Below, one piece after another: positions 1 through 24,836 of a stretch of 64,000 nucleotides of DNA. The notes beneath the pieces are model-generated. The model did no database searches and was not told where the DNA came from. It saw nothing but the letters and a program-made list of their open reading frames with translations. Made by a program: the position numbers and the translations under genes. Within the stretch, counting starts at the first letter, position 1. Each line of letters begins with the position of its first letter. Source of the DNA: Permianibacter fluminis (lineage in GTDB: Bacteria > Pseudomonadota > Gammaproteobacteria > Enterobacterales > Permianibacteraceae); NCBI RefSeq assembly GCF_013179735.1, contig NZ_JABMEG010000001.1, positions 2,790,001 to 2,854,000 of the forward strand. Reading direction: 5' to 3'.

Positions 1-315
1 CTCAACGTTCTGGCATTCGCAAGCACCATTTGGTTGATCGTCTGCTGTGTGCTGGCCTATGGCTTGTCGCGAGCAAATGTCGCTTGGTTCTTTCCTGCGA
101 TGATGCTCACCATCGGCAGTCGCTTTCTGATTTTTCATACGCTCTTTGGCCTCCGACTTTACTGGTTTTGCGGTGGCGCGTTGATTGTTGCCGGCTATCT
201 TTGCGCTGCTTTGCATATGCCGCCTGCGCTGACGGCATTTATTGGTGGCGGGCTGGAAGCGACGTTCGCGGTCTTGCTGCTTGTTACCAGACGGCGGATA
301 GCTGCGGCGGTTTGA
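1..315 (+). CDS. DUF7010-like membrane protein, 5' end cut by the window edge
   Basis: The reading frame is open from base 1 to the TGA at 313-315, so at least 104 C-terminal residues are present and the true start lies outside the window. The visible part holds about three hydrophobic helices (beginning LNVLAFASTIW, FFPAMMLTIGSRFLIF and LYWFCGGALIVAGYL) and ends in a short basic tail. The helix order and the FFPAM..IG.RF pattern recall the DUF7010 family of small multi-helix proteins of unknown function; this assignment is from memory of the family pattern. Nothing suggests an operon downstream, since a palindromic repeat and a gene remnant follow. Confidence 0.55.
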   Translation, partial: LNVLAFASTIWLIVCCVLAYGLSRANVAWFFPAMMLTIGSRFLIFHTLFGLRLYWFCGGALIVAGYLCAALHMPPALTAFIGGGLEATFAVLLLVTRRRIAAAV

Positions 316-336
316 TCATTCAACACTCGTATTGAA

Positions 337-416
337 GTAGGTTGCGCTGAGGCAGGAGGCCCAACAATCCCTTTCGGTCCCGCACCGTGATTGTTGGGGG
401 TTGCAGCTCAATCTAC
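337..416. repeat. Imperfect intergenic inverted repeat (REP/BIME-like)
   Basis: The left arm begins GTAGGTTGCGCTGAGG and runs into CCCAACAATC; the right arm mirrors it as GATTGTTGGG followed by TTGCAGCTCAATCTAC. The inner ten bases of each arm are perfectly complementary and the outer parts match with gaps. The pattern resembles the widespread gammaproteobacterial extragenic element with GTAGGTTGGGCT and CCCAACA arms, in a degenerate copy. Confidence 0.55.
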
Positions 417-432
417 AGGCCTGAGCGATTGA

Positions 433-585
433 GAGGTTACGCTCGGCGCAAGGACCCGAACGGGTAGCGGCCCTCTGAGGGGCGGTGCCACCGCTACCTA
501 TTATCAAGATGAACTGGCGCTGAACGATCCCTTGTTCCGTATTCTCCCTAGCGTGCTCAGCTGGTCACTGGAATATTTCGATTAG
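433..585 (+). pseudogene. Possible 3' remnant of an unknown gene
   Basis: A frame is open from 433 to the TAG at 583-585 and has no convincing start. Its last 32 codons read like a genuine protein C-terminus (TYYQDELALNDPLFRILPS, then a Trp/Tyr-rich end), with an amphipathic helix pattern unlike random translation. It follows directly after an intergenic repeat, which suggests that the rest of the gene was lost there. The family is not recognised. It could also be a chance open frame; 50 codons is too short to decide. Bases 586-731 downstream hold nothing recognisable. Confidence 0.3.
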
Positions 586-731
586 GTGCAGGCGTTCACA
601 CTCCCGCAATTTTCTTGCCCGGGGCTTTCGCCTATCATCATTCCTTGCCAGGATCGGCAGCCAGTTTTGATCGGTGCTCAGTGGTTTCTGCCAGTTCACC
701 ACCCGTTATCTACCAACAAGGATGTTGTCTC

Positions 732-1700
732 ATGCCAGTTTTTGTTTCCCCATCGATTTATCAGTCCGCCTGCTTTCACCTGCCGTCGAAGTCGCCTACA
801 GCAGTCAAGCGGATTTCGCAGCGCTCGCGCCTCATCATGTCGTTCGTCGGTTTGATCATGGGTTCGGCGGTGGCGACCGCTGCCGGCGCTGCAGACAGAT
901 GGGTGCAGGTGCATGCCGATTTCACCTATTCGCGAACCTACAACTTTGCCCGGCAGGAACCGAACTACTCGGAGAAGTCCCAGTTCACCTTCAATATGAA
1001 TGGTGCCGTTGATCAAATGATGTGGCGCATGGACCCTGACAAAGGCGAAAAGTACCCAACGTATAACGTACCGGATGAGATTCCGCTGTCGTTCAAAAAC
1101 TCTGGTAGCCTGGTGCTGAATGCGAGTTTCCAGAGCAGTGACAGAATCGCCAATCGCAACGACTCCGGCAGTGCATCGCTGCGCGGGACGCTCAAAAGCT
1201 GGGATGATTTTCACATCGAGAAGATTTCGCCGGAGAGCATTATCGGCGTCGAACTGTTCGCTCAGGTGTTGATGAAAGCCACGCTTGACGGCAATGTCAG
1301 CAGCACCCTGCCCAAGATGCCGGACAGCCGGGATGGCGATGAAGTGTTTATCTGGACCACGCCGGTGAAGTTTGATCATGACACGAGTACATTCATCAGC
1401 GAAATCCAGTTGCAGGCGCGGACGCCGCTGGGCCCACGACCCGGCAATAATTTCCAAGCCAAACTGTACGACCTGACGGTTGCGGCGACCGAGCTCACCA
1501 CGGCACCACAAATTGGTGGCAGTGCGCTGGCCACCAGGGATGCGACCATTACCGGCAGCACGGACAACTGGACCTTGAAGAGCTCGTTGTCACGCGAGGT
1601 TCCGATCGGCAGTGATCGCGGCAGTTACCAAGAAAGCATGACCATCACCATTCGACCGGTCGCGACCACGCTGAAGGTCCCGCCGAGCCCGGTTGATTAA
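732..1700 (+). CDS. Secreted or periplasmic protein of unknown function
   Basis: 322 codons from an ATG preceded by AAGGA about ten bases upstream. Residues 1-60 contain a basic n-region (PTAVKRISQRSR), a hydrophobic stretch (LIMSFVGLIMGSAVATAAG) and an AXA-like cleavage site before ADRW, so export is expected. An internal ATG at 837 would remove the basic n-region and is less likely. The mature part is rich in Ser, Thr, Asn and alternating hydrophobic residues, as in beta-sandwich or barrel proteins, with no cysteine pairs or catalytic motif that I recognise. It stands alone between the left-edge repeat and an AraC-type regulator. Confidence 0.6.
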   Translation: MPVFVSPSIYQSACFHLPSKSPTAVKRISQRSRLIMSFVGLIMGSAVATAAGAADRWVQVHADFTYSRTYNFARQEPNYSEKSQFTFNMNGAVDQMMWRMDPDKGEKYPTYNVPDEIPLSFKNSGSLVLNASFQSSDRIANRNDSGSASLRGTLKSWDDFHIEKISPESIIGVELFAQVLMKATLDGNVSSTLPKMPDSRDGDEVFIWTTPVKFDHDTSTFISEIQLQARTPLGPRPGNNFQAKLYDLTVAATELTTAPQIGGSALATRDATITGSTDNWTLKSSLSREVPIGSDRGSYQESMTITIRPVATTLKVPPSPVD

Positions 1701-1891
1701 CGGACGCTTGCGCGGCGTATCAAAACGCAAGCTGGCTTCAGCGCGGGTATTCGGTGCAAAATCGATGGACCAATCCATGAGCCTTTGCTTGAAACTCTGC
1801 GCGAAACCAGACCGGCAGGCGCCAGCAGAATGGCCAGGCCATTTCAACCTGATCCAATAGTGCTGGCGCGGCCTGAATCAAAAGAGCCATC

Positions 1892-2380
1892 GTGAGTCAG
1901 GACCCTGAATTGCTGCGCCGCTTGTTGCGCGCCAAAGATTGCATGGACGCCGCCTCGCATGAAGAGTGGCCGGTGCAGCGTTTGGCGCGTGTCAGCCATG
2001 TTTCGGCGGCGCATTTCGCCCGGTCTTTCAAGCAGGCATTCGGGCTGCCGCCGCATCGCTATCTGCTGACCCGACGGATCGAACGCGCCAAAACGCTGCT
2101 GCGCGACACCGACTTGCCGATTACCGACATTGTTTTTCAGACTGGCTGGAGCAGCATGGGCACGTTCGGGCGGGTGTTTCGCGACATCACCGGCGAGAGC
2201 CCGGGTGAGCTGCGCAAGCGCGAGCAGGCCGCCTCGCATGCACTCGACCGGGTGCCGGCCTGTTTTCTCAATGCGGCGCATCGGCCGGATCTCACGATCG
2301 CAGTTTCGGAGAAGCGGCGCCAGCAGACCGACTCTAGGATCGCCAGCGACGAGGCCAAACACACAGAGGAGGAGCCATGA
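1892..2380 (+). CDS. AraC-family helix-turn-helix regulator, DNA-binding domain only
   Basis: 162 codons from a GTG start. Residues 1-110 form a complete AraC/XylS DNA-binding domain with two helix-turn-helix units: the first around LARVSHVSAAHFARSFKQ, the second around ITDIVFQTGW with the family-typical F.R.F....G.SPGELR ending. There is no ligand-binding N-terminal domain; about 50 C-terminal residues are polar and probably disordered. The stop overlaps the start of the next gene by four bases (ATGA), so the two are translationally coupled, and small AraC regulators are often paired with VOC-fold proteins in this way. It probably controls its own operon; the effector is unknown. Confidence 0.85.
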   Translation: MSQDPELLRRLLRAKDCMDAASHEEWPVQRLARVSHVSAAHFARSFKQAFGLPPHRYLLTRRIERAKTLLRDTDLPITDIVFQTGWSSMGTFGRVFRDITGESPGELRKREQAASHALDRVPACFLNAAHRPDLTIAVSEKRRQQTDSRIASDEAKHTEEEP

Positions 2381-2781
2381 GTCAAGGAGTTGGGGTGGTC
2401 GGCTTGTATGTGCGTGATCAGGATGAGGCTGTGCAGTTCTATGTCGACAAGCTCGGGTTTCGCATCCACACCGATGTACGCAATGGCGATTACCGTTGGC
2501 TGACGGTGCAACACCCGGAGCAGCCGTCGTTTCAGCTTGGTTTGTTTACGCCGCAGGCGCCGTTGGTTGATGCCGCAACCGCGCAGACGCTGCGTGAAAT
2601 GGTGGCCAAAGGCGCGATGCCGCCGCTGGTGCTGGTTGTCGATGATTGTCGCGCCGCCTGGGAGCAGATGCGTGCCCGTGGCGTCGAATTCAGCCAGGAA
2701 CCGGTGGCGCGCTATGGTTCGGTCGATGCCAGTTTTCGTGATCCATCCGGCAATGGCTGGAAGCTGATCCAGAACCGGTAA
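2377..2781 (+). CDS. VOC-superfamily (glyoxalase/bleomycin-resistance fold) protein
   Basis: 134 residues, the usual size for a single-domain vicinal oxygen chelate protein built from two beta-alpha-beta-beta-beta modules. The N-terminus VVGLYVRDQDEAVQFYVDKL is the classic first module, and FRDPSGNGWKLIQ near the C-terminus is the classic last strand with its metal-ligand position. The start codon overlaps the AraC-type regulator stop. Members include lactoylglutathione lyases, dioxygenases and drug-binding proteins; the sequence alone does not say which, and the metal ligands here are incomplete compared with true glyoxalase I. Confidence 0.85.
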   Translation: MSQGVGVVGLYVRDQDEAVQFYVDKLGFRIHTDVRNGDYRWLTVQHPEQPSFQLGLFTPQAPLVDAATAQTLREMVAKGAMPPLVLVVDDCRAAWEQMRARGVEFSQEPVARYGSVDASFRDPSGNGWKLIQNR

Positions 2782-13593: not shown

Positions 13594-14802
13594 CTAGTCG
13601 ATATGGCGACCATTGAATGGGATTCGACCCAGCGCAACCAATGTCACGGCGCTTAACAAAGCTCCCGCATAGAACGTAAAGGCAGCTCCCACGTGATCCC
13701 ATAGCAGTCCGGCCAGGACACTGGCAATGAGCATGGCGATGCCGCTGACCAGATTGAAACAGCCAAAGGCCGTGCCGCGCAGATCCGCGGGTGCGGTATC
13801 CGCAATTATGGTCGCCAGCAAACCTTGCGTGATACCCATGTGAGCGCCCCACAGCGCGACGCCGAGCAATACGGTGCCGCAATGCACGCTCGTAGCGAGC
13901 ACCAAATCGGAGGCGATCAGGACGACTAACCCCCACGCCAGCAAGGTGCCATGACTCACGCGATCGGACAGCTTTCCAAACGGATAGCTCGACGCGGCGT
14001 AGACCACATTCATGGCGACCATGACCAGCGGTACCAGTGCAGTGGCCATACCGCTTTGCTGGGCGCGCAAAACCAAAAAAGCCTCACTGAAGCGGGCCAA
14101 GGTGAAGAGCGCGCCAATACCGACCACCCACCAATAGCGATGGTCAAGCCGTTGCAGGTTTTCTCGTCGGATCGGGTTGCTGCGTTTGCCTTCCTGATGA
14201 CGCGCGGGTTCGCGTACGCCGAACCCGAGCAGCGCCACGGCGAGCATGGCCGGGATCACTGCGACCCAGAAGACTTTGCGGAAGTCGTTGGCCCATAGCA
14301 GCATCAGGGCGACGGCGAGCAGCGGGCCAACAAAGGCACCGACCGTATCCAGTGACTGCCGCAGACCAAACGCCGCACCACGCATATGGGTGGGTGCAAT
14401 ATCCGCGACCAATGCGTCTCGTGGGGCGCCGCGAATACCTTTACCGACCCTGTCCAGCAACCGGGCAGTCAACACCAGGCCTGGCACCGTGGCCAAAGCA
14501 AACAGCGGTTTGGTGATGGCCGCCAAGGCATATCCGAACAGGGCTAGCCCTTTGCGCCGGCCCAGGTAATCACTCAAGGCGCCAGAAAACACTTTGACGA
14601 TCAGTGCGGTGGATTCCGCCAGCCCTTCAATAAGACCGATCGTGAGAGCACTCGCGCCGAGTGTGCCGACCAGAAACAGCGGCAGCAAACTGTGAATCAT
14701 CTCTGAGGAGATATCCATCAGCATGCTGACGAAGCCCAATACCCAAATCCCCGCCGGCAGGTGTCTCGGTGTCCTTCCGTTTTCTGACTCTCGCATGCTC
14801 AT
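13594..14802 (-). CDS. MFS transporter
   Basis: 402 codons from ATG 14802 (an upstream non-ATG start would add 15 residues; ATG 14796 is an alternative). Twelve hydrophobic helices are spread over the chain. The loop 2-3 signature appears as GALSDYLGRRKGLALFG and is partly repeated in the second half (YPFGKLSDRVSHGT), as expected for a major facilitator. The helix 4-5 region KGIRGAPRDALVADI is typical of a subgroup of uncharacterised drug/metabolite MFS proteins. Substrate unknown. It is the last ordinary chromosomal gene before the accessory region. Confidence 0.85.
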   Translation of the reverse strand: MSMRESENGRTPRHLPAGIWVLGFVSMLMDISSEMIHSLLPLFLVGTLGASALTIGLIEGLAESTALIVKVFSGALSDYLGRRKGLALFGYALAAITKPLFALATVPGLVLTARLLDRVGKGIRGAPRDALVADIAPTHMRGAAFGLRQSLDTVGAFVGPLLAVALMLLWANDFRKVFWVAVIPAMLAVALLGFGVREPARHQEGKRSNPIRRENLQRLDHRYWWVVGIGALFTLARFSEAFLVLRAQQSGMATALVPLVMVAMNVVYAASSYPFGKLSDRVSHGTLLAWGLVVLIASDLVLATSVHCGTVLLGVALWGAHMGITQGLLATIIADTAPADLRGTAFGCFNLVSGIAMLIASVLAGLLWDHVGAAFTFYAGALLSAVTLVALGRIPFNGRHID

Positions 14803-15415
14803 CACGTCCAGTTTTAGCTCGCTCAATGCCCTAATTTGCAAAATCAAAAGACGAGTTGTTTGGCTGCGACGCCAAAGTCTTACATAAGGTTCTTCCGGCC
14901 GCTGTACGCATGATTGGCTGTTCGGCCACGGTTGGCTAGCTAACCACCCCGCAGCGCAGTCAGCATTTGATTGCAGCTATCTCCGGTCGCCCTGTCACTG
15001 GTATCCGGTTTCGATCGTCATCGCTCGCCGGTCACGCTGGCAATTTGGCCCGGGCCTACAAAAAAACCAATTTTCTCGATTACTATCAAATGGATAGGGT
15101 ATTTTTTGCAATACTTAGCCACCTTTGACGGCAAGGCGGTCCAACGGCGACCGAACGGTTGGAACCTACAAATCGTTGGCGGTAAGTTCAGCCTGTGACT
15201 AGCCTCTGGCTATTTGTGCTGCCCATGTAACAAGTGAGCTCGACGATTCGCAACAACGGTAGTCAGAGAATCGCGGTTGGCATCTACTACCGGCACCGAA
15301 TCAAGCTGGTATCGCAGAGGTACCTAAGAGCTTGGCCGGAGGCAGTTGCTCGGATACCGACAACCCTTCTTCTATTACTTACGCTGTTAGGCACCATCAT
15401 TCTCAAGGGCTGACC
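14803..15415. other. 613-bp gap at the left edge of the accessory region
   Basis: No convincing gene was found. The part around 15050-15115 is markedly AT-rich (runs of A and T around a TTTTTTGCAATAC segment), unlike the flanks. Short open frames such as 14971-15198 lack a ribosome-binding site. No tRNA, integrase or direct repeat that would define an attachment site was recognised. Confidence 0.4.
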
Positions 15416-16072
15416 ATGAACTCATCTCAGGTAGCGGATCCCCAGGCGATCTGTGAAGACTTCCTTGTCAAAGGGAAACGCCACAACATTGAGCAAAGGA
15501 TTCTTGTTAGTGAGAATGTCGTCGCAGACCGACTGCTAGCCCGCGGGCTTGAACTAAAAGATGCCTACGATGAGTTGTACAACAAGCTCCATAGACATCC
15601 CAATGCACTCCAGGACTTTCTCAAGCTAATATTGAGCGCCACTGCATTTTGGAATCCTGCGGCGGCAAACATGTCACGTGCTGCGCGTGACGAGCTCGTG
15701 AAAATCAACGAGCAGATCGCGAAGAAAGCGGCCGATCTGGCAGCCCTGCTGGAACAGCGGTCAGTGCTAAACAATACGTCAGGTTTCTGGAGCGAAACAC
15801 ACTTCCATGTTGGCGATGTGATCAAAGCTGCATCCCGCCGCAACCAGCTATTTGACATCTACCTCAAAGAGCACCTAGATACCCTGATTGGCCGTTTTGA
15901 CCCTAAGTACTGGCCCACGCTGAGTGAGTTCCTGAATGAGCTGGCGACAAACGCCGAACAAGGGGATGTTGCAGCCACGGATCCGTTGACGGCAGCCGCC
16001 ACCCATGCGGCGCGACCGTCCCTAGCCGATTTCCTCAAGGCCTTGTTCGCATCCATAGAAGAGAACAGATAA
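15416..16072 (+). CDS. Unknown helical protein, perhaps prematurely stopped
   Basis: 218 codons from ATG 15416. The chain is mostly helical and polar, with a heptad-like region (ELVKINEQIAKKAADLAAL, then LEQRSV) that could form a coiled coil, and no signal peptide, membrane helix or known motif. After the TAA at 16070-16072 the same frame stays open for another 50 codons to 16225 and still reads like protein (RLPKDFRLTDRSLASLV, LEPDDMIDESYVKRL). Either a nonsense mutation shortened the gene or the extra segment is chance. Base composition is closer to AT than the housekeeping genes here. The next gene begins 56 bases after the second stop. Confidence 0.6.
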   Translation: MNSSQVADPQAICEDFLVKGKRHNIEQRILVSENVVADRLLARGLELKDAYDELYNKLHRHPNALQDFLKLILSATAFWNPAAANMSRAARDELVKINEQIAKKAADLAALLEQRSVLNNTSGFWSETHFHVGDVIKAASRRNQLFDIYLKEHLDTLIGRFDPKYWPTLSEFLNELATNAEQGDVAATDPLTAAATHAARPSLADFLKALFASIEENR

Positions 16073-16280
16073 GCCAACTTCGGACGACTCCCAAAAGACT
16101 TCAGGCTCACAGACAGATCGTTGGCTTCGCTAGTAAACTGCGCATTAGATCTGGAACCTGATGACATGATTGACGAGTCGTATGTGAAACGACTTCGTCA
16201 ACGTGAACGCAATGAAACCAAGTAAGTACACGCGGCAACATGTTGTTCAAGGGATTGCTTAATATCAAAAGGAATCACAG

Positions 16281-17327
16281 ATGGCCTCTCATGTTTACCT
16301 ACCAACCTTGAAATGGATGAAAGCGGAGAAAGATACGCTGCTCAATTTGGCGGTTTCGGTCAAAGCCAATCTCTTGCCTTTGCTGGAGCTGCGCAAGTCG
16401 GAACGTGTGCCGAATTTCATAGCGGAGTGGGAGCGGTATTGGAAGCAGCCGGCGTTGTTCGATTGCGCCACAGTCGAAGGTGAGTTATCAGAAGTCCGTG
16501 AGGCAGCCTTGCTGCATGTTATGCAGAACCTTGGGCCTCACGCTGCGTTGCTGGGTCCGGTAGTCAATCCGGAGCGCATCAAGCATTTGCCAGCCCCTTT
16601 GCTGGCTTTGCTGCGAGCGCACCAAGGACCAATGGCAGTCCGGTTGCGTATCAAAGCGATGTTGACCAGCCAGCAAGAAGAGGCGGCTTTTTCCGCCTGC
16701 GCAGGATTAAATCGCATCCCGGCGGCCATGACACTGGTCGTGGATATGTGTGAGACACCGCAGCTGACGGATGCCGAACAAAATGCACTCGTTGCTGCGC
16801 TTCAGCGTCTGCAGCAACAGGGGTGGCAACAGGTGTATCTGCTGTCCGGCGCCTATCCCATCGACTCCCGGCAAATGCGCGTCGGTCGCAATGAAGTGGT
16901 GCGAACGGACTGGCAGCTATGGCAAACCCTCATTCAAAAACGGGGTCTCACGAACGTGTACTATGGTGACTACGGTATCGTGTCGCCGAAATGGGATGAA
17001 GACGATGCGATACGGCGCGGCAAAATCAATTATCGCTACGCCGCAGCGAAGCACTGGATCGTCTACCGCAGTGATTCCGATGGCGGTACGGCTGGCAATG
17101 AGTTGGCACAGCTGCTGACGCTGGAAAGCGATTTCCGTTGCGCTGCCTTTAGTTGGGGCGATGACCGAATCGAGCAACGAGCGGACAATACGAGCGGAAA
17201 ATTCAAATTGGGCTGCGGCAACAAAACGCAGCATATTGCCGAAGGGATGAATCACCACCTTACGCAGGTAGTGGATCAGCTCTTACCGGCGTCCGGTTCA
17301 GCAAGCAGCGGCGCACCAGCTCTTTGA
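16281..17327 (+). CDS. Beta-family protein (sce7725-like)
   Basis: 348 residues. The opening YLPTLKWMKAEKDTLLNLA and LPLLELRKSE follow the start of the Beta protein family (PF14350, named after a phage T4 protein), whose members begin Y.P.LK.K.GE..AL and I.PL.E. Members are found in phages and next to defence genes; their activity is unknown. The C-terminal stretch of about 20 residues after QVVDQLLP is low in complexity. Its 3' end overlaps the convergent sce7726-like gene by 68 bases. Sce7725 and sce7726 family proteins are named as a neighbouring pair, so this pair probably acts together despite the opposite orientation. Confidence 0.75.
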   Translation: MASHVYLPTLKWMKAEKDTLLNLAVSVKANLLPLLELRKSERVPNFIAEWERYWKQPALFDCATVEGELSEVREAALLHVMQNLGPHAALLGPVVNPERIKHLPAPLLALLRAHQGPMAVRLRIKAMLTSQQEEAAFSACAGLNRIPAAMTLVVDMCETPQLTDAEQNALVAALQRLQQQGWQQVYLLSGAYPIDSRQMRVGRNEVVRTDWQLWQTLIQKRGLTNVYYGDYGIVSPKWDEDDAIRRGKINYRYAAAKHWIVYRSDSDGGTAGNELAQLLTLESDFRCAAFSWGDDRIEQRADNTSGKFKLGCGNKTQHIAEGMNHHLTQVVDQLLPASGSASSGAPAL

Positions 17328-17823
17328 GATCCGCCACCATCAATTTTTCTGCCAACAGTTCGTGCAGGCGGTACAGCGGCAGACGGGTGGCGCGTGTCTC
17401 TTCCAACGCCAGCAAGTTGGGCTGAATCTCCTCGCGCTCGAGCAGTTGGGCCAAGGCCAGCGGCGAAAAGCCCGGATTGGCATGTGGGGAGCGCTGCCAG
17501 GTAAGACGCTCATGGGTTTCATCCACGATCATCACGCCCCACCAGTCCGGGATCAGGTCCAGCGCTGCGTCCAGATGCCGAACGGCCGTCACCAAGGTGA
17601 CGTGGTCAAAGACGCGTCCGTACTGCCAGCCTTGCTTGACCAGGCGCTGAAGCGTGTCGCGTGAGCTTTTGATCTCGTAGCAATCCAGGTGACCGTAGAC
17701 AGCCACCACATCGGCTCGAACCACTCCGCGGCCTAGTCGCAGCTCTTCCAGCACCACCGGTGAGGGGCGCACGCTGCTTTGCAGCTGCTGGCACAAGGCC
17801 GTGCGGATGGCATGCTCTCGCAT
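17260..17823 (-). CDS. sce7726-family protein with PD-(D/E)XK-like core
   Basis: 187 residues. The N-terminal half matches the sce7726 family: IRTAL at 6-10, Glu27, VRADVVAVYGHLDCYEIKS with Asp38 and Glu50-x-Lys52, then LQRLVKQGWQYGRVFDHVTLV and IPDWWGVMIV. The E...D...E-x-K order is that of PD-(D/E)XK nucleases, so a nuclease role is a reasonable inference but not shown. It is transcribed leftward from a gap shared with the HTH gene and overlaps the Beta-family gene at its 3' end, which could couple their expression through antisense transcripts. Confidence 0.8.
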   Translation of the reverse strand: MREHAIRTALCQQLQSSVRPSPVVLEELRLGRGVVRADVVAVYGHLDCYEIKSSRDTLQRLVKQGWQYGRVFDHVTLVTAVRHLDAALDLIPDWWGVMIVDETHERLTWQRSPHANPGFSPLALAQLLEREEIQPNLLALEETRATRLPLYRLHELLAEKLMVADLKELVRRCLLNRTPVRADPLPA

Positions 17824-17889
17824 ATCGCGTTTCCCCTCGTTGAACGGGCCGGCACTTTACTTGAAAGCAGGTTACTCCTACTATAGACG

Positions 17890-18104
17890 TTATGCAATTA
17901 TGCGAAAGGTAGTTTATGAGCGCATACCGACCAGCGGCCGTCCTGGTGGCGGAAATACGGCAAGCTCTAGCCGCCAAAGGGCCGCTCAATACCTTGCGTA
18001 TTGCCAGGGAAACAGCGTTAACGCAGTCCAATGTGCATCGCTGTCTGCGCGGTCAGCCCAAGCGGGTCGGCAAGACGCTGCTCGCTTTATGCATTTATGC
18101 GAAA
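17890..18104 (+). repeat. Pair of near-identical 18-bp elements at the HTH gene
   Basis: Positions 17890-17907 and 18087-18104 match in 17 of 18 bases (TTATGCAATTATGCGAAA and TTATGCATTTATGCGAAA). Each copy holds two TTATGC half-sites spaced eight bases apart. The first lies in the promoter region just upstream of the HTH start and the second inside its coding sequence, an arrangement used by autoregulators that bind upstream and internal operators. Confidence 0.5.
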
Positions 18105-18290
18105 ATAGACCCAGCAATGGATAAGCTTACCGCCGCCAATAACGCCACTTTGATGCATGCACTCGAACAAGTCTGGGATGGCAGCGAGCAACACGCGCGC
18201 TCGCTGGCCCGCTTGCTGATTGCGGCCAGCAACGCCGCGCTGCCACAATCCCGCCCCAATCCCAGACACCGAGCCGGAGCGGCCCCATGA
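17916..18290 (+). CDS. Small HTH protein, first gene of a peptidase/PIN operon
   Basis: 124 residues. The segment LNTLRIARETALTQSNVHRCLRG (about 24-46) fits a helix-turn-helix of the XRE/Cro or replication-regulator kind, followed by a second helical block and a disordered Pro/Arg/Ala tail. The stop overlaps the ImmA/IrrE-like gene by four bases (ATGA). Candidate operators lie upstream and within the gene. XRE-type regulators commonly precede ImmA/IrrE peptidases, which cleave or inactivate such repressors; by analogy this protein may be the repressor of the operon and the peptidase substrate. Confidence 0.65.
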   Translation: MSAYRPAAVLVAEIRQALAAKGPLNTLRIARETALTQSNVHRCLRGQPKRVGKTLLALCIYAKIDPAMDKLTAANNATLMHALEQVWDGSEQHARSLARLLIAASNAALPQSRPNPRHRAGAAP

Positions 18291-19327
18291 CAGCCACCAC
18301 CGTTCCGCCCCTGACGCCGACGCAGCTTTATCAGCAGCTGCAAAAGCAAGGGTTTCCACGCAGCTTCGTTGAGCGCCTGCTTCCCGACTGGTGGGATGAC
18401 AGCCTGCTGAAGACGACGAGCGGCTTGCTGGAGCTGGCCGTCATTTTGCGTCGTCGCACCGCCGCCGAACTGCAAATCGGCACCGACGGCCGGGTCACCC
18501 TGTCCCCGCCCGGGCAACCGATGCGATTCAAGAAGCGCAGCACGACCGGTGAGCACGATCTGCATGTGGCCAGTCAGCTGGCGTTAGCCATCGCGCGAAT
18601 TGCCGTTACCGCTGCGCCTCGTTATCGGCCGTTGCCCTCCGACGCCATTGCCTTACGCAATGCGGCGCTGGCTTGCTCCAAGCGGCCAGCGCTGGATTTT
18701 GTTGGGCTCATTTCCTATTGCTGGCAAAGCGGCGTGCCGGTGTTGTTCCTCAAAAATTTACCCGCCAATCGCCGCCGAATGGCGGGGGTCGCCTTACGGG
18801 TCCAGCAACGCCCCGTGATTGTGCTTGGTTATCAGGACGCCAACCCCTCCAAGCAACTGTTTGTGCTCGCGCATGAGCTTGGTCATCTGCAGCTCGGCCA
18901 TGTCGCCGATGATCAGCTGCTACTGGATGAGCGCATGGACCAAATTGAAGCCTCCTTGCGCGACGGCGAGAACGATAAAGACGAAATCGCTGCCGATGCG
19001 TATGCCTTTGAGCTGCTTCGTGGTGCCGCTGCCGATCTGATTGCGCAATTGCCCGCCACAGGCACCGCGAGCGCACTCGCTTTAACGGCCCTGCAGCTGG
19101 AAAAACACCATGGTGTTGATGCCGGCCATCTGCTCTGGTCGTATGCCTACACCAGCAAGGATTGGGCACGCGCCAATATGGCGGTCGATTTCTTGCCCAT
19201 GCGAAAAACCACCGCATTTGAGGTGCTCGAAGCAACTCAACGTGAAGCGATACAGCAAGCGCTGCTGCCGCCGGAAGAGTTGAACTATCTGCTCACGATG
19301 CAAGGGTTCTCCTTCGCCAAGGACTAA
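18287..19327 (+). CDS. ImmA/IrrE-type zinc metallopeptidase
   Basis: 346 residues. The gluzincin signature AHELGHLQLGH supplies His196, catalytic Glu197 and His200, and DEIAADAYAFELL supplies the third ligand Glu233 with the A-D-x-x-A pattern of the ImmA/IrrE (COG2856) family. The N-terminal 130 residues hold helical segments of unknown role, and about 90 residues follow the peptidase core. Known members cleave phage or ICE repressors, DdrO in Deinococcus, or act in toxin-antitoxin modules. It overlaps the HTH gene upstream and is followed six bases later by the PIN-like gene. Confidence 0.88.
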   Translation: MTATTVPPLTPTQLYQQLQKQGFPRSFVERLLPDWWDDSLLKTTSGLLELAVILRRRTAAELQIGTDGRVTLSPPGQPMRFKKRSTTGEHDLHVASQLALAIARIAVTAAPRYRPLPSDAIALRNAALACSKRPALDFVGLISYCWQSGVPVLFLKNLPANRRRMAGVALRVQQRPVIVLGYQDANPSKQLFVLAHELGHLQLGHVADDQLLLDERMDQIEASLRDGENDKDEIAADAYAFELLRGAAADLIAQLPATGTASALALTALQLEKHHGVDAGHLLWSYAYTSKDWARANMAVDFLPMRKTTAFEVLEATQREAIQQALLPPEELNYLLTMQGFSFAKD

Positions 19328-19333
19328 GGCGCG

Positions 19334-19957
19334 ATGCTGTTGCTGGATAACGATGCGGCGACCAAATTGGCTCGGTACGATCTGTTGGCCGAGCTGCTTA
19401 TCGCATTTCGTGTCGGCTGGGCCGACATCTATCTCCTTGACTCGCTGAAATACCGCTTCCATTTGACGGATGCTCTGCACGCGGAGCGTCTACTCGGGTC
19501 GTCGGGGGCTGTACAGCGGGTCCAGCAATTGGTTGCGCAGACGCAGCCGCTCATCCTGTCAACGGCCACTGTCACCGAAACTATGAACTTGCTAAATGCA
19601 ATCGATGATCCCGGTATTGATGCCGGGGAACAGGTGTTGTTCGCCTATCTCGCTGCAGATCCTGACAGCACGCTGATCACCGGTGACAAGAACGCCATTC
19701 GGGCGCTGGCCCGGCATACCTACCATCCAGCTATTGCGAGCTGCCAGGGCCGCATCATTTGTTTGGAACAAGCAGTGAAGACAATTGCCCTGCGCGGCAC
19801 TGTAGCTGCGTTATGCAGCAAGCTGCAGGCCGATTCAGCGGCCGACAAAGCCGTTGCAATTTGCGCTCGCCAACCATCGAGTTTCCTCGACTGCATGGAC
19901 AGCTATATCGCGGCGCTACGCGCTTCAGCGGGCGGTTTATTGTGCCCAGACATCTGA
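19334..19957 (+). CDS. PIN-like nuclease domain protein
   Basis: 207 residues. The start MLLLDNDAATKL places Asp5 as in PIN strand 1; IDAGEQVLFAYL gives Asp96 and Glu99 in the E-x-x-A helix position, and LITGDKNAIRAL gives Asp118 in the T-x-D strand of PIN nucleases. Together these form a plausible acidic metal site. The C-terminal 80 residues are divergent. PIN domains are often RNase toxins, and pairs of DUF4411 PIN proteins with ImmA/IrrE peptidases are known; this one is not obviously DUF4411. The tight spacing (six bases) to the peptidase gene argues for a joint role. Confidence 0.7.
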   Translation: MLLLDNDAATKLARYDLLAELLIAFRVGWADIYLLDSLKYRFHLTDALHAERLLGSSGAVQRVQQLVAQTQPLILSTATVTETMNLLNAIDDPGIDAGEQVLFAYLAADPDSTLITGDKNAIRALARHTYHPAIASCQGRIICLEQAVKTIALRGTVAALCSKLQADSAADKAVAICARQPSSFLDCMDSYIAALRASAGGLLCPDI

Positions 19958-20042
19958 CCGTGCGCGCACCGGTGAAAATGCCGCCCGAGACTGGGAACGC
20001 GTAACGAGGTGATCGGACAGGACGAGCAGTTCTGGCACTGGC

Positions 20043-20768
20043 TCAATAATCCAGTAACTCATTAGCCACTTGTGCGGCCCTAACCACCGCTTTGGGGTCG
20101 GCGACCAGGAGTTCGTGAGGACGTGCACCATTCAAATAACCATTTGGTGCATAGAACCAGAATGAGATCGCCCAGCCCGTTGCCCCTTTCGGGAATGATT
20201 CGATGATCTGCTTCACTTCAGGACGGATAGAGCCAGTGACTGGATCAAACTGATAGCCGGGAAACATTTCCGTCTCGCCAACGCTGACGGCAAACAGTTC
20301 ATTTTTTCCTCTCCGATCTGCAATCACTTCGCCAGCTAGTGAAGCAGAAAACCCCATCCGTATGGCAACACCTTCGCGGTCCAAATGCTCAATGTTGGAG
20401 AGAATACGGTAGCGGCGCTCTGCGCCGAGCAGGAGTTGTCTTGCGGTACCGCCCTGCAACAGTCCGGGATTGGCAACCAAGTCGGCGATAACTCGCTCCC
20501 GCGACTCTGCCAAAGAACGAGTCGTTGCACGGAGAACTCGCAGCGCTGCTCTCAACGCCGGGAGTTTGGAGATCCATGAAGCGGCATCTTGATTAGCATT
20601 CAACTCTAGCATCCACCGTTCGCAATCTGCGAGGTAGCCCTCTTGGCCAATAAAACAGGCTGCCTCTTGCTGCAAAACAGCATAGACATCGGCATCATCC
20701 AGCAAGAGTGACGATGGGCATAATCCAAGACTGTCGTCATCTGAAGATTGGCACTTATCACTAGGCAT
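20043..20768 (-). CDS. HTH plus MbcA/ParS-type antitoxin-like protein
   Basis: 241 residues. The region LLGAERRYRILSNIEHLDREG then IRMGFSASLAGEVIADRRG looks like the helix-turn-helix of the MbcA/ParS/Xre group, and FPGYQFDPVTGSIRPEV, then WAISFWFYAPNGYLNGARP and DPKAVVRAAQ match the DUF2384 toxin-binding domain closely. Such proteins normally neutralise RES-domain NAD-degrading toxins encoded next to them. No RES domain was recognised in the neighbours. An N-terminal extension of about 80 helical residues precedes the HTH. A TTGACG box with a 17-base spacer lies upstream. Confidence 0.72.
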   Translation of the reverse strand: MPSDKCQSSDDDSLGLCPSSLLLDDADVYAVLQQEAACFIGQEGYLADCERWMLELNANQDAASWISKLPALRAALRVLRATTRSLAESRERVIADLVANPGLLQGGTARQLLLGAERRYRILSNIEHLDREGVAIRMGFSASLAGEVIADRRGKNELFAVSVGETEMFPGYQFDPVTGSIRPEVKQIIESFPKGATGWAISFWFYAPNGYLNGARPHELLVADPKAVVRAAQVANELLDY

Positions 20769-20871
20769 GGCAGATACCCTCGGTGACTACGACTCAACTT
20801 ACTCGGGCTAGTGTCGCTATCGGGAAAAAGCGTCAAGCCGAATTTGTCCTGTAACAGTCATTCGCATAAAT

Positions 20872-21603
20872 TCAGCCATCTGTGTCGGCCTCGGTACTGA
20901 CCCCGGGGTACCCAGCAGGCAGTCCCTGTGAGAAAATCACGACTCGCAACACCTTATCCGGCGAGAGATGTACCCAATCCGGAAACGTTGAGTCGATCAG
21001 CATCAGCAGCTCCGGCAAATCGGACTGTAGCATCGGAAGCTGACGCAAGCCTTCCTGTATCATACGATAGCCACGCAACGCCATGCTACGCAGCTCTAAG
21101 GAGCTAATCAGCTCGGACTCCCAGACGAAGAGCAATAGTGTGGCTAAGCCATCGAAATTACCCAGTGCCGCCAGCTGATGGATCAACACGTTTGTCACAT
21201 CTGCACGTTGCCATTTACCCACATTCAATGAGCAAGGCACGAACAGCAGATCCCGCAACTGTGGCTGTGCCAACAGCAGATCATTGATTTCCGCTTGGCT
21301 GTTTGGCTTGGTGCGAATGACGTGCCACAAGAAATGCTCGTGCCATTGCGCCGTCCCTGGTACCTCTGCCTCGACCCGAAGCACTTTTTCGGGCCTCGGG
21401 TTGTTTAACCCTTCCTTGTAGTTCTTCCACTTGCGGCTCCAATCGGTTTTGGAGTCATGCCGGTATATCTGCTCACCATCAAACCTTGCCTGCAAACCCC
21501 GGTCATCCAGTCCGGTGGCCAGTGATACCGCGCGATACCAGATTTTTGCTCGTAGCGTTTCCAGAGGCAGCCGGACTGGTCGTCCACGGGTCTTCTTGGT
21601 CAT
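20872..21603 (-). CDS. Unknown protein next to a perfect palindromic operator
   Basis: 243 residues of no recognised family. The basic start MTKKTRGRPVRLPLETLRAK resembles DNA-binding tails (AT-hook-like RGRP), followed by WYRAVSLATGLDDRGLQARF and WSRKWKNYKEGLNNPRP, which could be a recognition helix region, then a leucine-rich helical part to the C-terminus. No catalytic motif was seen. Its start codon lies 11 bases from a perfect 13-bp inverted repeat shared with the divergent small HTH gene. It could be a regulator or the effector of a two-gene module; I have no basis to choose. Confidence 0.6.
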   Translation of the reverse strand: MTKKTRGRPVRLPLETLRAKIWYRAVSLATGLDDRGLQARFDGEQIYRHDSKTDWSRKWKNYKEGLNNPRPEKVLRVEAEVPGTAQWHEHFLWHVIRTKPNSQAEINDLLLAQPQLRDLLFVPCSLNVGKWQRADVTNVLIHQLAALGNFDGLATLLLFVWESELISSLELRSMALRGYRMIQEGLRQLPMLQSDLPELLMLIDSTFPDWVHLSPDKVLRVVIFSQGLPAGYPGVSTEADTDG

Positions 21604-21613
21604 CCCATCCTCG

Positions 21614-21642
21614 CGGTAAAGAAATTCCGAATTTCTTTACCG
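21614..21642. promoter_or_regulatory. Perfect 13-bp inverted repeat, candidate divergent operator
   Basis: CGGTAAAGAAATT (21614-21626), spacer CCG, AATTTCTTTACCG (21630-21642). The two arms are exact reverse complements. The site lies in the 99-bp gap between two divergent genes, 11 bases from the start at 21603 and 60 bases from the start at 21703. There is no T tract, so a terminator is unlikely. Confidence 0.75.
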
Positions 21643-21702
21643 GTTGTATCAGATCTCGGAGCTGTACGACTATCCCGATATCTGCATTAAGGAGAAACGT
21701 CC

Positions 21703-21966
21703 GTGACAGACGATACCCTACAAGACATCGACGTATTAAAGCGGGACTTGGCGAGGCGCTATGGCGAGCTCATTAGTGGCGACGATTTACGCAAACACTT
21801 GGGCTACGCGAGTCCGGCCGCGTTCCGGCAAGCCATCTGTCGTGGCGTGGTACCCATTCCCGTGTTCACATTGCCGAATCGCCGAGGCCGCTATGCGTGG
21901 GTGCGCGATTTGGTGAATTGGTTGATCCAGGTTCGGAATGAAACCCGTGTGACCAAGCGTGACTGA
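21703..21966 (+). CDS. Small AlpA-like DNA-binding protein
   Basis: 87 codons from a GTG start with AAGGAG eight bases upstream. The centre, ISGDDLRKHLGYASPAAFRQA, then VPIPVFTLPNRRGRYAWVRDLVNWL, has the winged-HTH plus beta-hairpin pattern of AlpA/PrtN/excisionase-like regulators, in which the strand with N.RGR.AW contacts DNA. Such proteins switch mobile elements or regulate neighbouring operons. It is divergent from the unknown gene and separated from it by the palindrome. The 3' side is a hairpin-rich gap before a transposase. Confidence 0.65.
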   Translation: MTDDTLQDIDVLKRDLARRYGELISGDDLRKHLGYASPAAFRQAICRGVVPIPVFTLPNRRGRYAWVRDLVNWLIQVRNETRVTKRD

Positions 21967-22050
21967 GAGAAATTTCGTAAGCGAATAAGAGAGAGAAATC
22001 ATGAACAGCAGCTAGCGACCGCGAGATTTTGGGGCGCCAGAAAGCACAAC

Positions 22051-22200
22051 GCCCGGCCCCTTTGGCGAGAGGTCGGGCGCGAACTGCGGAAAAGCCAAGC
22101 AGCTTTCGGACCGTAGTTTCCGTGTGAGCGAGCAACTTGTCAAGGCCTGAGCAATGTCGTCAGGCCTCACGGCAGGATGCTGCTCCCGTGCGCCCTGCCG
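22051..22200. other. Three consecutive hairpins upstream of the transposase
   Basis: In the 21967-22280 gap three stems follow each other: GCCCGGCC / GGTCGGGC (22051-22058 with 22071-22078, one wobble), AGGCCTGA / TCAGGCCT (22143-22150 with 22160-22167) and CGGCAGG / CCTGCCG (22170-22176 with 22194-22200). None has a clear T tract. They could shield the transposase from read-through transcription or belong to the element end. No gene was found in this gap. Confidence 0.5.
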
Positions 22201-22280
22201 CTGGCCTCCGCCGGCAGGATGGTCTGCATCACCGCTGATAGTGACGCAGGCCGTAACCGTGGCACAGATACGGGAACGGG

Positions 22281-23426
22281 ATGGCACAGCATTATCTGCT
22301 GTCTGCCAAGGCACGGGATTTTTCGCTTCGCGATATCGACAAAATGAGCGAAGACGATGCGTGGTGGCGGTTCGTCGAGAGCCGCTGGGGTGGACGTGAT
22401 CAACAAGGGTGCCCAGGATGCGGCGTCTTTGACCGCCATTACGCCATTCGTACCCGCAAACAATGGCGTTGCAAGCATTGCACACGCACGTTCAGCGTTA
22501 CCTCGGGCACAGTGTTTGCCGATCGCAAACTCAGCTTTAAAGACATTCTTCGCGCGGATTTTCTCTTTGCCGCATCCGCGAAAGGAATCTCGCATGTTGC
22601 ACTGGCCACGCAGATGGGCGTGGCTTACAAAACAGCAATGGTTTTGGCCCATAAACTGCGCGAAGCCCTTTACCATTCCCGAGACACCTCGCCCTTGAGT
22701 GGTGAGATCCACATCGATGGCGGCCATTTCGGCGGCAAACCGAGGCGGCCGCGGGTTCGCAACAGAAAGCCGTCTACGGAGGAACTTCAGGCTCATATTA
22801 TGGGGAGGCGGCGTAAAGGAAAAAATGCGCAGCCAGACTTACCTGAAATGTCAATGGAATCCGAACGCCACCCGAAAAATGGACAGCACCGCAAACGGGT
22901 TGGTTTGAGCAAGTTGAATCAGAGAAAAAAGGAGAACCGAAGAATCGTCTTCGTGCTGCGAGAGATTCACCCGGAGCCCGGTCACGGAGCGCAACGCACC
23001 AGGGTATCCGTCGGCCTCAGTGAGAATGAGAAGAATGCGATGGCACTTGCCCAGCGCTATATAGCGCCTGGGAGCACGGTGCATTCGGATGAAAACCCGG
23101 CCTATTTCCGCTTTGATGGCTTGTACACACACCGCACGGTTGAGCATTCCAAGGAATACGCAACCGAGGATGGTATCCATCAGAACCAGGCGGAATCGTA
23201 TTTTTCTCGGCTTCGGCGCTACGAGTACGGGGTCGGTCACCAGATCCGCAAACGATACTTGGCGCTCTATGCAAATGAAATGGCGTGGCGAGAGGATTAT
23301 CGTCGCCATAGCGTTGGTGTACGATTCAACAAGTTGCTTCAGCAAACACTACAGGTTGGCTATTCGAAGTGGTGGCGCGGCTATTGGCAAGGATACAAAC
23401 TGCCAGAAGAGCTCCTCATGGACTAG
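22281..23426 (+). mobile_element. IS1595-family transposase
   Basis: 381 residues. The N-terminus has a zinc ribbon (CPGCGVFDRHYAIRTRKQWR then CKHC with TFSVTSGTVF), as in the ISXO2/IS1595 transposase group. The catalytic DDE/DDN-type core is visible as EIHIDGGHFGGK, VHSDENPAYF and HQNQAESYFSRLRR. It seems full length, so the element may be active. Terminal inverted repeats were not resolved: GGCGCC motifs at 22033 and 23450 are partly similar but no target duplication flanks them. It ends 19 bases before the stop of the convergent gene and marks the right part of the accessory region. Confidence 0.88.
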
Positions 23427-23445
23427 TTTCGGTCTATCGCTCACT

Positions 23446-23973
23446 TCAGGGCGCCTTAAACTGCCAATAGGGGTCCCGAAGACCCTCCCTACCGTTCAAT
23501 CGCGTTACTTTCCCATCTCGTAGAAGGTTCCGCAACCTGTGGCGAATGGCCTTGCGAAATTCGACGAATTCGACTTCCGAAAACTCAACGCCTTCGTTGT
23601 GTATAACAAAAGTGGCAATTTCGAGCACTTTAAAAGCCTTTTCCTTGTCGGATGCCAAACACATATAGATTGCTCGGGTCATCCTGCCCCACGCCAATAA
23701 GCGTGAGTTTAGAATTGGTTTGATCGGTTGCACCATCGTTGGGTCGACCGGTATCTCGTAGAGCGAGATGGTGTGGTCGATCACCTCCAGGTCCTTCTTC
23801 AGACGCTGCGCTTTTTCTGCCAGTACGGCGAATGTTTGGAGCTTGTCCTCTATGTAAGCGATTTTTCCGGACAGACGGGCTCGCTTATCCAAAAGCCAGA
23901 AGAGTGTTGGGGGAGTTCGAGTTCGCATAATGATGGGGAGGTTAACGAAACCCTCCCCAAACATCATGTGCAA
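23446..23973 (-). CDS. Unknown coiled-coil protein
   Basis: 175 codons from ATG 23973; ATG 23928 (MRTRTPPTLFWLL) would give 160 residues and is also possible. The first half contains LSGKIAYIEDKLQTFAVLA and AQRLKKDLEVIDHTISL, a likely coiled coil; the second half has short helices and ends in a Gly/Arg-rich segment (RNLLRDGKVTRLNGREG) before WQFKAP, which looks like a winged-helix wing. No family recognised. The gene sits between the transposase and the ordinary chromosomal genes and may be part of the mobile region. Convergent with the transposase. Confidence 0.6.
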   Translation of the reverse strand: MHMMFGEGFVNLPIIMRTRTPPTLFWLLDKRARLSGKIAYIEDKLQTFAVLAEKAQRLKKDLEVIDHTISLYEIPVDPTMVQPIKPILNSRLLAWGRMTRAIYMCLASDKEKAFKVLEIATFVIHNEGVEFSEVEFVEFRKAIRHRLRNLLRDGKVTRLNGREGLRDPYWQFKAP

Positions 23974-24101
23974 CAGCTACCTAATGGCGTTTGCCTCGGC
24001 AGTGGCACGCCCTCGCTGCGCAAAAGGCTCGGGTATACTTTGGCCGATTTTCGCCATCCCCGCCGTCACTGCCAGTCACCTTTGCCAAGGAAGCCCATCC
24101 T

Positions 24102-24836
24102 ATGCGCAGTTTTCTCCGCTGCTTCGTTGTTTTGATGTTGCTGAGTTTCTTCATTGAGGCTCAGGCGCAAGTTCGGGTTCTGGTGTATGGCGATTCCAAT
24201 ACCTGGGGCTGGACACCGGGTTACAGCGGCGGTGCATTTAAGCGCTACAGTGATGGCGAGCGCTGGGCGGGTGTCATGAGTGCCAGTCTGGGCGCAGACT
24301 ATTCGGTCACGGTAAACGGTGTGGTGGCGCGCACGCTCAATGCCGATCTGCCGGAGGGTGCCGGGCAGCTCAGCGGTGAAGATGAAAACGGCCGCAAACG
24401 GTTGGCGCTGGCATTGGCGGAGGCGGGCCCAGTCAATGTTGTCATTGTGGCCTTGGGAACCAATGATTTGCTCGATGAGCTGCAGCGGAATCCTGATGCC
24501 ATTGCGGCCGATCTGCGTCTTATCGCTGAGATTATTGATAAAGGCACCGAGCCCGCTGCGGCGCCGCTACGAAAACGCTTTGTTGTGGTCGCGCCGCCAG
24601 CGTTGGCTGACACCAGCCATTCCATTTTCAGCGATAGCTTCAGTCCTGCAGCGATCACGAAATCACAGCAGCTGGCGGCTGCATTTGCAGTCGTCGGCAA
24701 AGAACTGCAGATTGAGGTCATTGATGCCGGCCAAATCATTCGAACCGACGGTTCGGACGGTGTCCATTTTTCCAAAGATGCTCATGCCAAGCTCGGACAG
24801 GCAATGGCCGCAGAGCTGAAGCGGATTCTTCAGTAA
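24102..24836 (+). CDS. Exported SGNH hydrolase (arylesterase/acyltransferase-like)
   Basis: 244 codons from ATG 24102, with CCAAGGA upstream; an in-frame extension to 23991 is not supported. A signal peptide (LRCFVVLMLLSFFIEAQAQ) ends near residue 22. The four SGNH blocks are present: VLVYGDSNTWGWTP with the Ser nucleophile, a conserved Gly in NGVVARTLN, VVIVALGTNDLLDE, and DGVHFSKDAH with the catalytic Asp-His. The WGWTP and ARTLN features are close to the mycobacterial perhydrolase MsAcT and related arylesterases. It is probably periplasmic; substrate unknown. Confidence 0.88.
   Translation: MRSFLRCFVVLMLLSFFIEAQAQVRVLVYGDSNTWGWTPGYSGGAFKRYSDGERWAGVMSASLGADYSVTVNGVVARTLNADLPEGAGQLSGEDENGRKRLALALAEAGPVNVVIVALGTNDLLDELQRNPDAIAADLRLIAEIIDKGTEPAAAPLRKRFVVVAPPALADTSHSIFSDSFSPAAITKSQQLAAAFAVVGKELQIEVIDAGQIIRTDGSDGVHFSKDAHAKLGQAMAAELKRILQ

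Follow-up and report, generated by a model that had tools for sequence, protein, structure and literature searches.

A convergent and overlapping beta-cII gene pair of the gop-beta-cII / PD-lambda-2 kind in Permianibacter fluminis, with a predicted PD-(D/E)XK nuclease

Two separately named anti-phage systems are the closest described relatives of the gene pair studied here. The gop-beta-cII genes of P4 confer protection against lambda and P1; in the available text of that report, gop is toxic without beta, the toxin is gop and not cII, and the genes are called non-essential (PMC9122126). PD-lambda-2 is described, in the available part of its report, as consisting of A (HigB-like), B (an Xre-peptidase) and C, the last being kin to a P4 antitoxin and required for the defence against lambda-vir (PMC9519451). 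The P4 record NC_001609 places gop at 247-648 (+), beta at 651-1718 (+) and cII at 1746-2540 (-), so that beta and cII are convergent with a 27-nt gap; their products are named 'beta family protein' and 'sce7726 family protein', respectively.

We analysed a stretch of 64,000 nucleotides of P. fluminis (contig NZ_JABMEG010000001.1, positions 2,790,001 to 2,854,000), referred to as the window; the features of the locus are collected in Table 1. A first-pass annotation of the window had reported two convergent open reading frames with a 68-base overlap, and their coordinates were found to be exact. The beta protein matched PF14350 over residues 6-331 (161.7 bits, cut-off 27), and the sce7726-like protein, hereafter cII, matched NF033832 over residues 1-178 (134.1 bits, cut-off 70). 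The latter also matched the MmcB-like family PF06319 weakly (22.3 bits, cut-off 22), over residues 23-114 only.

Table 1. Features of the beta-cII locus (positions in the window)
Feature	Coordinates	Strand	Description
beta	16281..17327	+	348 aa; Beta_protein family PF14350; predicted TIM barrel; relative of P4 beta and PD-lambda-2 C
cII / sce7726 family	17260..17823	-	187 aa; NF033832; predicted PD-(D/E)XK nuclease domain plus C-terminal helices; P4 cII relative
Tail-to-tail overlap	17260..17327	both	68 nt; encodes beta residues 328-348 and cII residues 167-187
HTH protein	17916..18290	+	124 aa; HTH_26 / HTH_IclR matches weak and under cut-off; opens the adjacent module
M78 (ImmA/IrrE-like) peptidase	18287..19327	+	346 aa; weak PD-Lambda-2_B match, 1.7e-5
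PIN-like protein	19334..19957	+	207 aa; phrog_15597; paired with M78 in other prophages
Two genes of unknown family	20043..20768 and 20872..21603	-	in repeated block; no Pfam/NCBIfam match over cut-off, no PADLOC/PHROG match at 0.1
IS1595-family transposase	22281..23426	+	within repeated block, at its end region
Repeated block	16267..23991		7.7 kb; second copy in the same genome, L003 9416-17127

Both proteins are related to components of the two described systems. Among the PADLOC profiles, the window beta matched PD-Lambda-2_C at 9.9e-24 and the P4 'beta' profile more weakly, at 7.5e-8, while cII matched 'cll' at 2.6e-17. Compared with gop-beta-cII of P4, the window has homologues of beta and cII in the same convergent order, but it lacks gop, its coding ends overlap where those of P4 are separate, and its beta is nearer to the PD-lambda-2 C models than to the P4 beta model. 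When the open frames of at least 60 aa from the surveyed loci (including window positions 14001-24500) were searched by phmmer with P4 gop, none matched except that of P4 itself. The pair most likely functions in the manner of gop-beta-cII, but as gop was sought and not found, we do not file it as a full member. The likeness to PD-lambda-2 lies in beta, a homologue of component C, and in a nearby M78 peptidase gene. However, we looked in the window for a HigB-like A gene and an Xre-M78 fusion B gene directly upstream of beta and found neither; the M78 here is a separate gene downstream of cII. The pair is for this reason not filed as PD-lambda-2 either. Judged from the sequences, the pair is for the most part accounted for as one more form of a defence locus of known kind, and it is not an undescribed family.

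Intermediate arrangements were also observed. In one locus (L016, 3769-6940), a HigB-like A, an Xre-M78 B, beta and an overlapping convergent cII stand together, possibly as a four-gene form of PD-lambda-2. The loci of E. coli strain C and strain PS2Canimalfeces3 (L226, L227), on the other hand, have PD-lambda-2 A, B and beta with no cII, from which it follows that beta can work without cII.

The claim of the first-pass annotation that the Beta and sce7726 families are a recurrent pair, for which a neighbourhood survey had been set as the check, held up well. Among 369 genomes of the window's class, sce7726 was present in 8, beta in 8 and both in 5, where 0.17 would be expected (P 5.5e-8). A survey of 180 cII loci drew on viral contigs, with 80 kept out of 135 confirmed relatives, on named genomes, with 80 kept out of 154, and on plasmid, phage and other genome loci; it was drawn up with cII queries and so says nothing on beta without cII. 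A beta open frame was found in 168 of the 180 loci, convergent with cII in every one of the 168, and the coding ends overlapped in 163. The facing orientation, which had been put forward as a departure from the usual arrangement, is in fact the rule. A chance meeting of independent families is ruled out by the co-occurrence and the orientation.

The exceptions are few. The surveyed beta-cII loci without a coding overlap are L063, L069, L017, P4 and L146, but in L069 the gap is apparent only: its cII is broken up into two frames, and beta shares 26 nt with the second. Beta was not detected at 12 cII loci: L036, L037 and L050 end at a contig edge, L011-L013 carry a longer sce7726 type (292-309 aa) with the catalytic positions kept, and L022, L030, L079, L084, L151 and L179 have room for a beta that was not found. 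Near copies being numerous, we clustered cII at 70% identity; among the resulting 85 clusters, beta was present in 76, convergent in all 76 and overlapping in 72, with a median overlap of 47 nt. A search with the PF14350 family yielded 22 further beta loci (L191-L212), of which L198 and L199 are one frame, and L191, L192, L193 and L196 had already been sampled in the cII survey. There, cII was detected in 12 and not in 10; it was convergent in 12/12 and overlapping in 10/12, with an overlap of only 4 nt in L203. The coding ends stay separate in P4-type relatives (the gap of P4, abutting ends in L017, a 5-nt gap in L202), so the overlap is not essential; those of L196 likewise abut. Another locus (L218, G046 contig 224) bears a tandem array of several beta genes, with short M78 genes lying upstream; cII was not detected there.

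Both beta-cII pairs of the window's own genome are convergent and overlapping. The distance matrices of beta and cII correlate (r 0.59, against a maximum of 0.16 in 2000 permutations), and a pair at least 95% identical to that of L020 occurs in 93 of 5426 complete E. coli genomes. The overlap is found over a wide taxonomic range; the titles of the records that bear it name Pseudomonadota, Bacillota, Actinomycetota, Chloroflexota (Anaerolineales), Acidobacteriota (Bryobacterales), Gastranaerophilales and a Spirochaetales assembly, several of them being metagenome bins.

The length of the overlap is 2 mod 3 in 65 of the 72 overlapping clusters and 0 mod 3 in the other 7. In the available text of a study of 58 genomes, the same phase accounts for 49% of the convergent overlaps of at least 5 nt (PMC2174442); the 65 of 72 seen here exceeds this value (P 1e-13), though the clusters share ancestry and are not independent. 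In a beta tree of 82 rows, 7 of the 8 rows with the second phase fell into one group (SH-aLRT 98), and shuffled labels never needed so few changes. The tree was quick and midpoint-rooted, with several long branches, including that of the own genome's other beta (L003), and was used for phase inheritance only. On this sequence evidence, the overlap phase is inherited.

As a measure of constraint within the overlap, we counted third-base changes at four-fold degenerate sites, taking only codons with an unchanged amino acid. For beta, 44/264 such sites were changed in the overlap against 1982/4287 elsewhere, the overlap being lower in 31 of 33 disjoint pairs; for cII, the values were 36/224 and 1322/2863 (lower in 37 of 41 disjoint pairs). 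The overlap sites of both genes hence change about a third as often as the others. The edge is sharp: among disjoint pairs of equal overlap length, 40/240 sites were changed in the beta overlap against 31/87 in the preceding ten codons (28 pairs), and 24/201 against 60/155 for cII (34 pairs). The two copies in the window's own genome differ in the same direction (beta, 2/13 against 39/144; cII, 0/12 against 14/89). Constraint of the four-fold sites in both genes, with such an edge, indicates that both frames are real.

The shared DNA also encodes conserved protein features. R177 of cII, which lies within the overlap, is invariant in the alignment of 50/50 relatives, and 65 of 72 clusters have a cII motif R..W within or at the overlap, where the opposite strand encodes the end of the last beta helix. 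The same motif is kept in cII proteins without beta (L030, L079, L151, L179) and therefore serves cII itself. An overlap of disposable tails was rejected as the sole reading, as the last predicted helices of both proteins extend into it. At the Trp positions, the window copy deviates: V180 replaces the Trp of this cII motif, conserved in 94% of the cII relatives, and H318 replaces one conserved in 98% of the beta relatives. Given these two losses, the window copy may be divergent or weakened.

The AlphaFold2 model of cII (pLDDT 93.9) resembles PD-(D/E)XK proteins over residues 1-116. Its best match was 3dnx (SPO1766; Z 11.6, 3.4 A rmsd, 132 aligned), followed by PaqCI endonuclease (Z 9.7), Can2 (Z 9.0) and EndoMS (Z 8.7), among rows that were mostly nucleases of the PD-(D/E)XK fold; Foldseek gave no match to the cII model with E below 0.001. 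Residues D38, E50 and K52 are invariant in 18/18 and 50/50 aligned relatives, and likewise E27, D56, R60 and Q64. We take E27, D38, E50-x-K52 and Q64 to be the acidic/lysine catalytic set of PD-(D/E)XK nucleases. The earlier description of the sce7726-like protein as PD-(D/E)XK-like thus agrees with the modelled fold and the invariant catalytic positions, and cII is a predicted PD-(D/E)XK nuclease whose activity, we infer, would be metal-dependent. With PaqCI, Can2/Cdn1, EndoMS and SPO1766, it has the predicted core fold and the catalytic positions in common; it differs from them in an added C-terminal helical part (residues about 117-180) and in its convergent partner gene.

The beta model is a TIM barrel (pLDDT 87.9). 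Foldseek returned two matches at E <=0.001, and a second structure aligner gave Z of at least 8 for 731 of 1000 chains (best 12.1), the matches listed being barrel enzymes with no single closest one. A sequence search of solved structures gave nothing significant for beta (best E 0.48) or for cII. Four residues of beta (D61, D155, R208 and D230) show 86-100% conservation among 50 sequences and are located at strand ends, where the active sites of TIM barrels lie. From the model, a role of beta as an enzyme or ligand binder, despite its 'antitoxin' label, is worth testing.

Downstream of cII in the window, and running divergently from it, are the HTH, M78 and PIN-like genes. The last of these presumably encodes a PIN protein, an assignment made from a motif only. 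The M78 protein reached 1.3e-15 against the PD-lambda-2 B profile after iteration. M78 and PIN-like genes are adjacent and in the same order in P2-like prophage records, between the replication endonuclease and portal genes, but there they occur without beta or cII; the pair also stands without beta or cII in 8/8 viral relatives. We therefore treated HTH-M78-PIN-like as a separate module, and its M78-PIN-like part may itself be a toxin-antitoxin or defence cargo. A viral scan with the PIN-like protein alone confirmed no relatives, and a search for M78 in phage records gave no match. Among the 76 beta clusters, an M78 of the PD-lambda-2 B kind was directly upstream of beta in 18, elsewhere in 4 and not found in 52, with no room for one in 2; the window locus counts here as lacking it, although its M78 sits downstream of cII. 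Of the 38 viral clusters, 33 yielded no M78 relative near beta, which makes cII the most obvious effector candidate there. The passenger genes around beta-cII vary between loci.

The repeated block holds beta, cII, the HTH, M78 and PIN-like genes, the two genes of unknown family and the IS1595 transposase, and its two copies are 76-90% identical, depending on the stretch. Its left edge lies 14 nt before the beta ATG, and beta must therefore depend on different upstream DNA at the two sites. Terminal repeats of IS1595 were not found at the block; a lone 11-mer inverted match was unconvincing. The block is probably mobile.

Taken together, we favour, at a probability of about 0.6, the reading that the window carries a convergent beta-cII pair of the gop-beta-cII / PD-lambda-2 kind on this repeated, probably mobile block, in which cII would act as an effector nuclease, with beta controlling it or serving as a sensor; the overlap would be an evolutionary lock, and the whole would serve in defence. 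The predicted nuclease would act in a metal-dependent manner on invading or host DNA. The beta barrel, with the active-site-like cluster described above, would restrain cII or a neighbouring toxin, or sense infection, and release from beta would lead to abortive infection. Both proteins need the last helix encoded by the shared DNA, so no clean breakpoint would separate the genes, and beta and cII would travel together. The overlap is most simply such a lock, with a secondary effect on expression via convergent transcription being possible.

That a gene-calling error or a chance open frame accounts for the overlap is scarcely conceivable. Ordinary genomes do have convergent overlaps, 58 of them in E. 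coli in the available text of PMC2174442; against this, both strands here encode conserved families, the phase is conserved, synonymous change drops sharply in both genes, and conserved residues of both proteins lie in the shared DNA or at its edge. Antisense coupling of the two genes, which had been suggested from the window, is possible. In its strongest form the overlap itself would be the control device: the transcripts would have complementary 3' ends, and read-through or lost termination, for example by phage antitermination, would produce antisense RNA or polymerase collisions that shift the beta:cII ratio and trigger the effector. We regard this form as unlikely. The orientation is kept across beta proteins only ~20% identical, also in loci that lack a coding overlap (P4, L017, L202), both known relatives act on lambda according to the available texts (PMC9122126, PMC9519451), and no terminator-like hairpin is listed inside the window overlap. 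However, the terminator and promoter scan of the window was at or below chance and says little (7 terminators found overall against 5.4 +- 2.4 in shuffles), dual coding alone explains the constraint, and P4 has an annotated putative terminator between beta and cII.

It is possible, though rather doubtful, that all five genes from beta to PIN-like form one rearranged PD-lambda-2-like system, to which the HTH-M78-PIN genes downstream of cII supply toxin and peptidase. The repeated block contains all five, the window M78 matches the B profile, and an M78 gene is directly upstream of beta not only in the 18 of 76 clusters but in 17 of the 22 family-search loci (two of which are one frame). The two genomic copies, however, amount to one event, and M78-PIN-like stands alone in the viral relatives and P2-like prophages mentioned above. 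We consider it quite improbable that beta-cII is a moron of phages or plasmids that serves DNA processing or repair, kept for the element's own replication and not for defence. The weak MmcB-like match, the presence of EndoMS among the fold matches of cII and the many copies on phage genomes and viral contigs are in keeping with such a role, but gop-beta-cII and PD-lambda-2 are anti-phage by experiment, and the P4 genes are called non-essential, as far as the available texts go (PMC9122126, PMC9519451).

The suggestion that the pair might belong to an undescribed nuclease system survives in part. It does not extend to the genes themselves: in the available texts, P4 beta and cII are part of an anti-phage system already in print, and PD-lambda-2 C is kin to beta (PMC9122126, PMC9519451). 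The convergent, dual-coded overlap, by contrast, is nearly universal and spans gop-beta-cII and PD-lambda-2, and we found no description of this in the available texts on sce7726/sce7725, the beta family, gop-beta-cII, P4, PD-lambda-2 or convergent overlaps and termination; the original P4 paper (Ghisotti 1990), outside that scope, may mention it. A bolder proposal, which we hold to be speculative and on balance improbable, is that beta and cII form an anti-phage nuclease unit of two genes that stands by itself, predates both named systems and is common to them, and in which beta would be an enzyme or ligand sensor and no plain antitoxin. The dual-coded tail would then have been kept across phyla since the antisense layout sets the effector:inhibitor ratio and senses disturbed termination in infection.

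The beta-cII core links gop-beta-cII to PD-lambda-2, two defence systems that go by different names, with the predicted cII nuclease as a candidate effector. It is also an unusually clear case of an antisense, dual-coded overlap maintained over wide bacterial distances, and with it the long-standing question of whether bacterial convergent overlaps do anything becomes testable.
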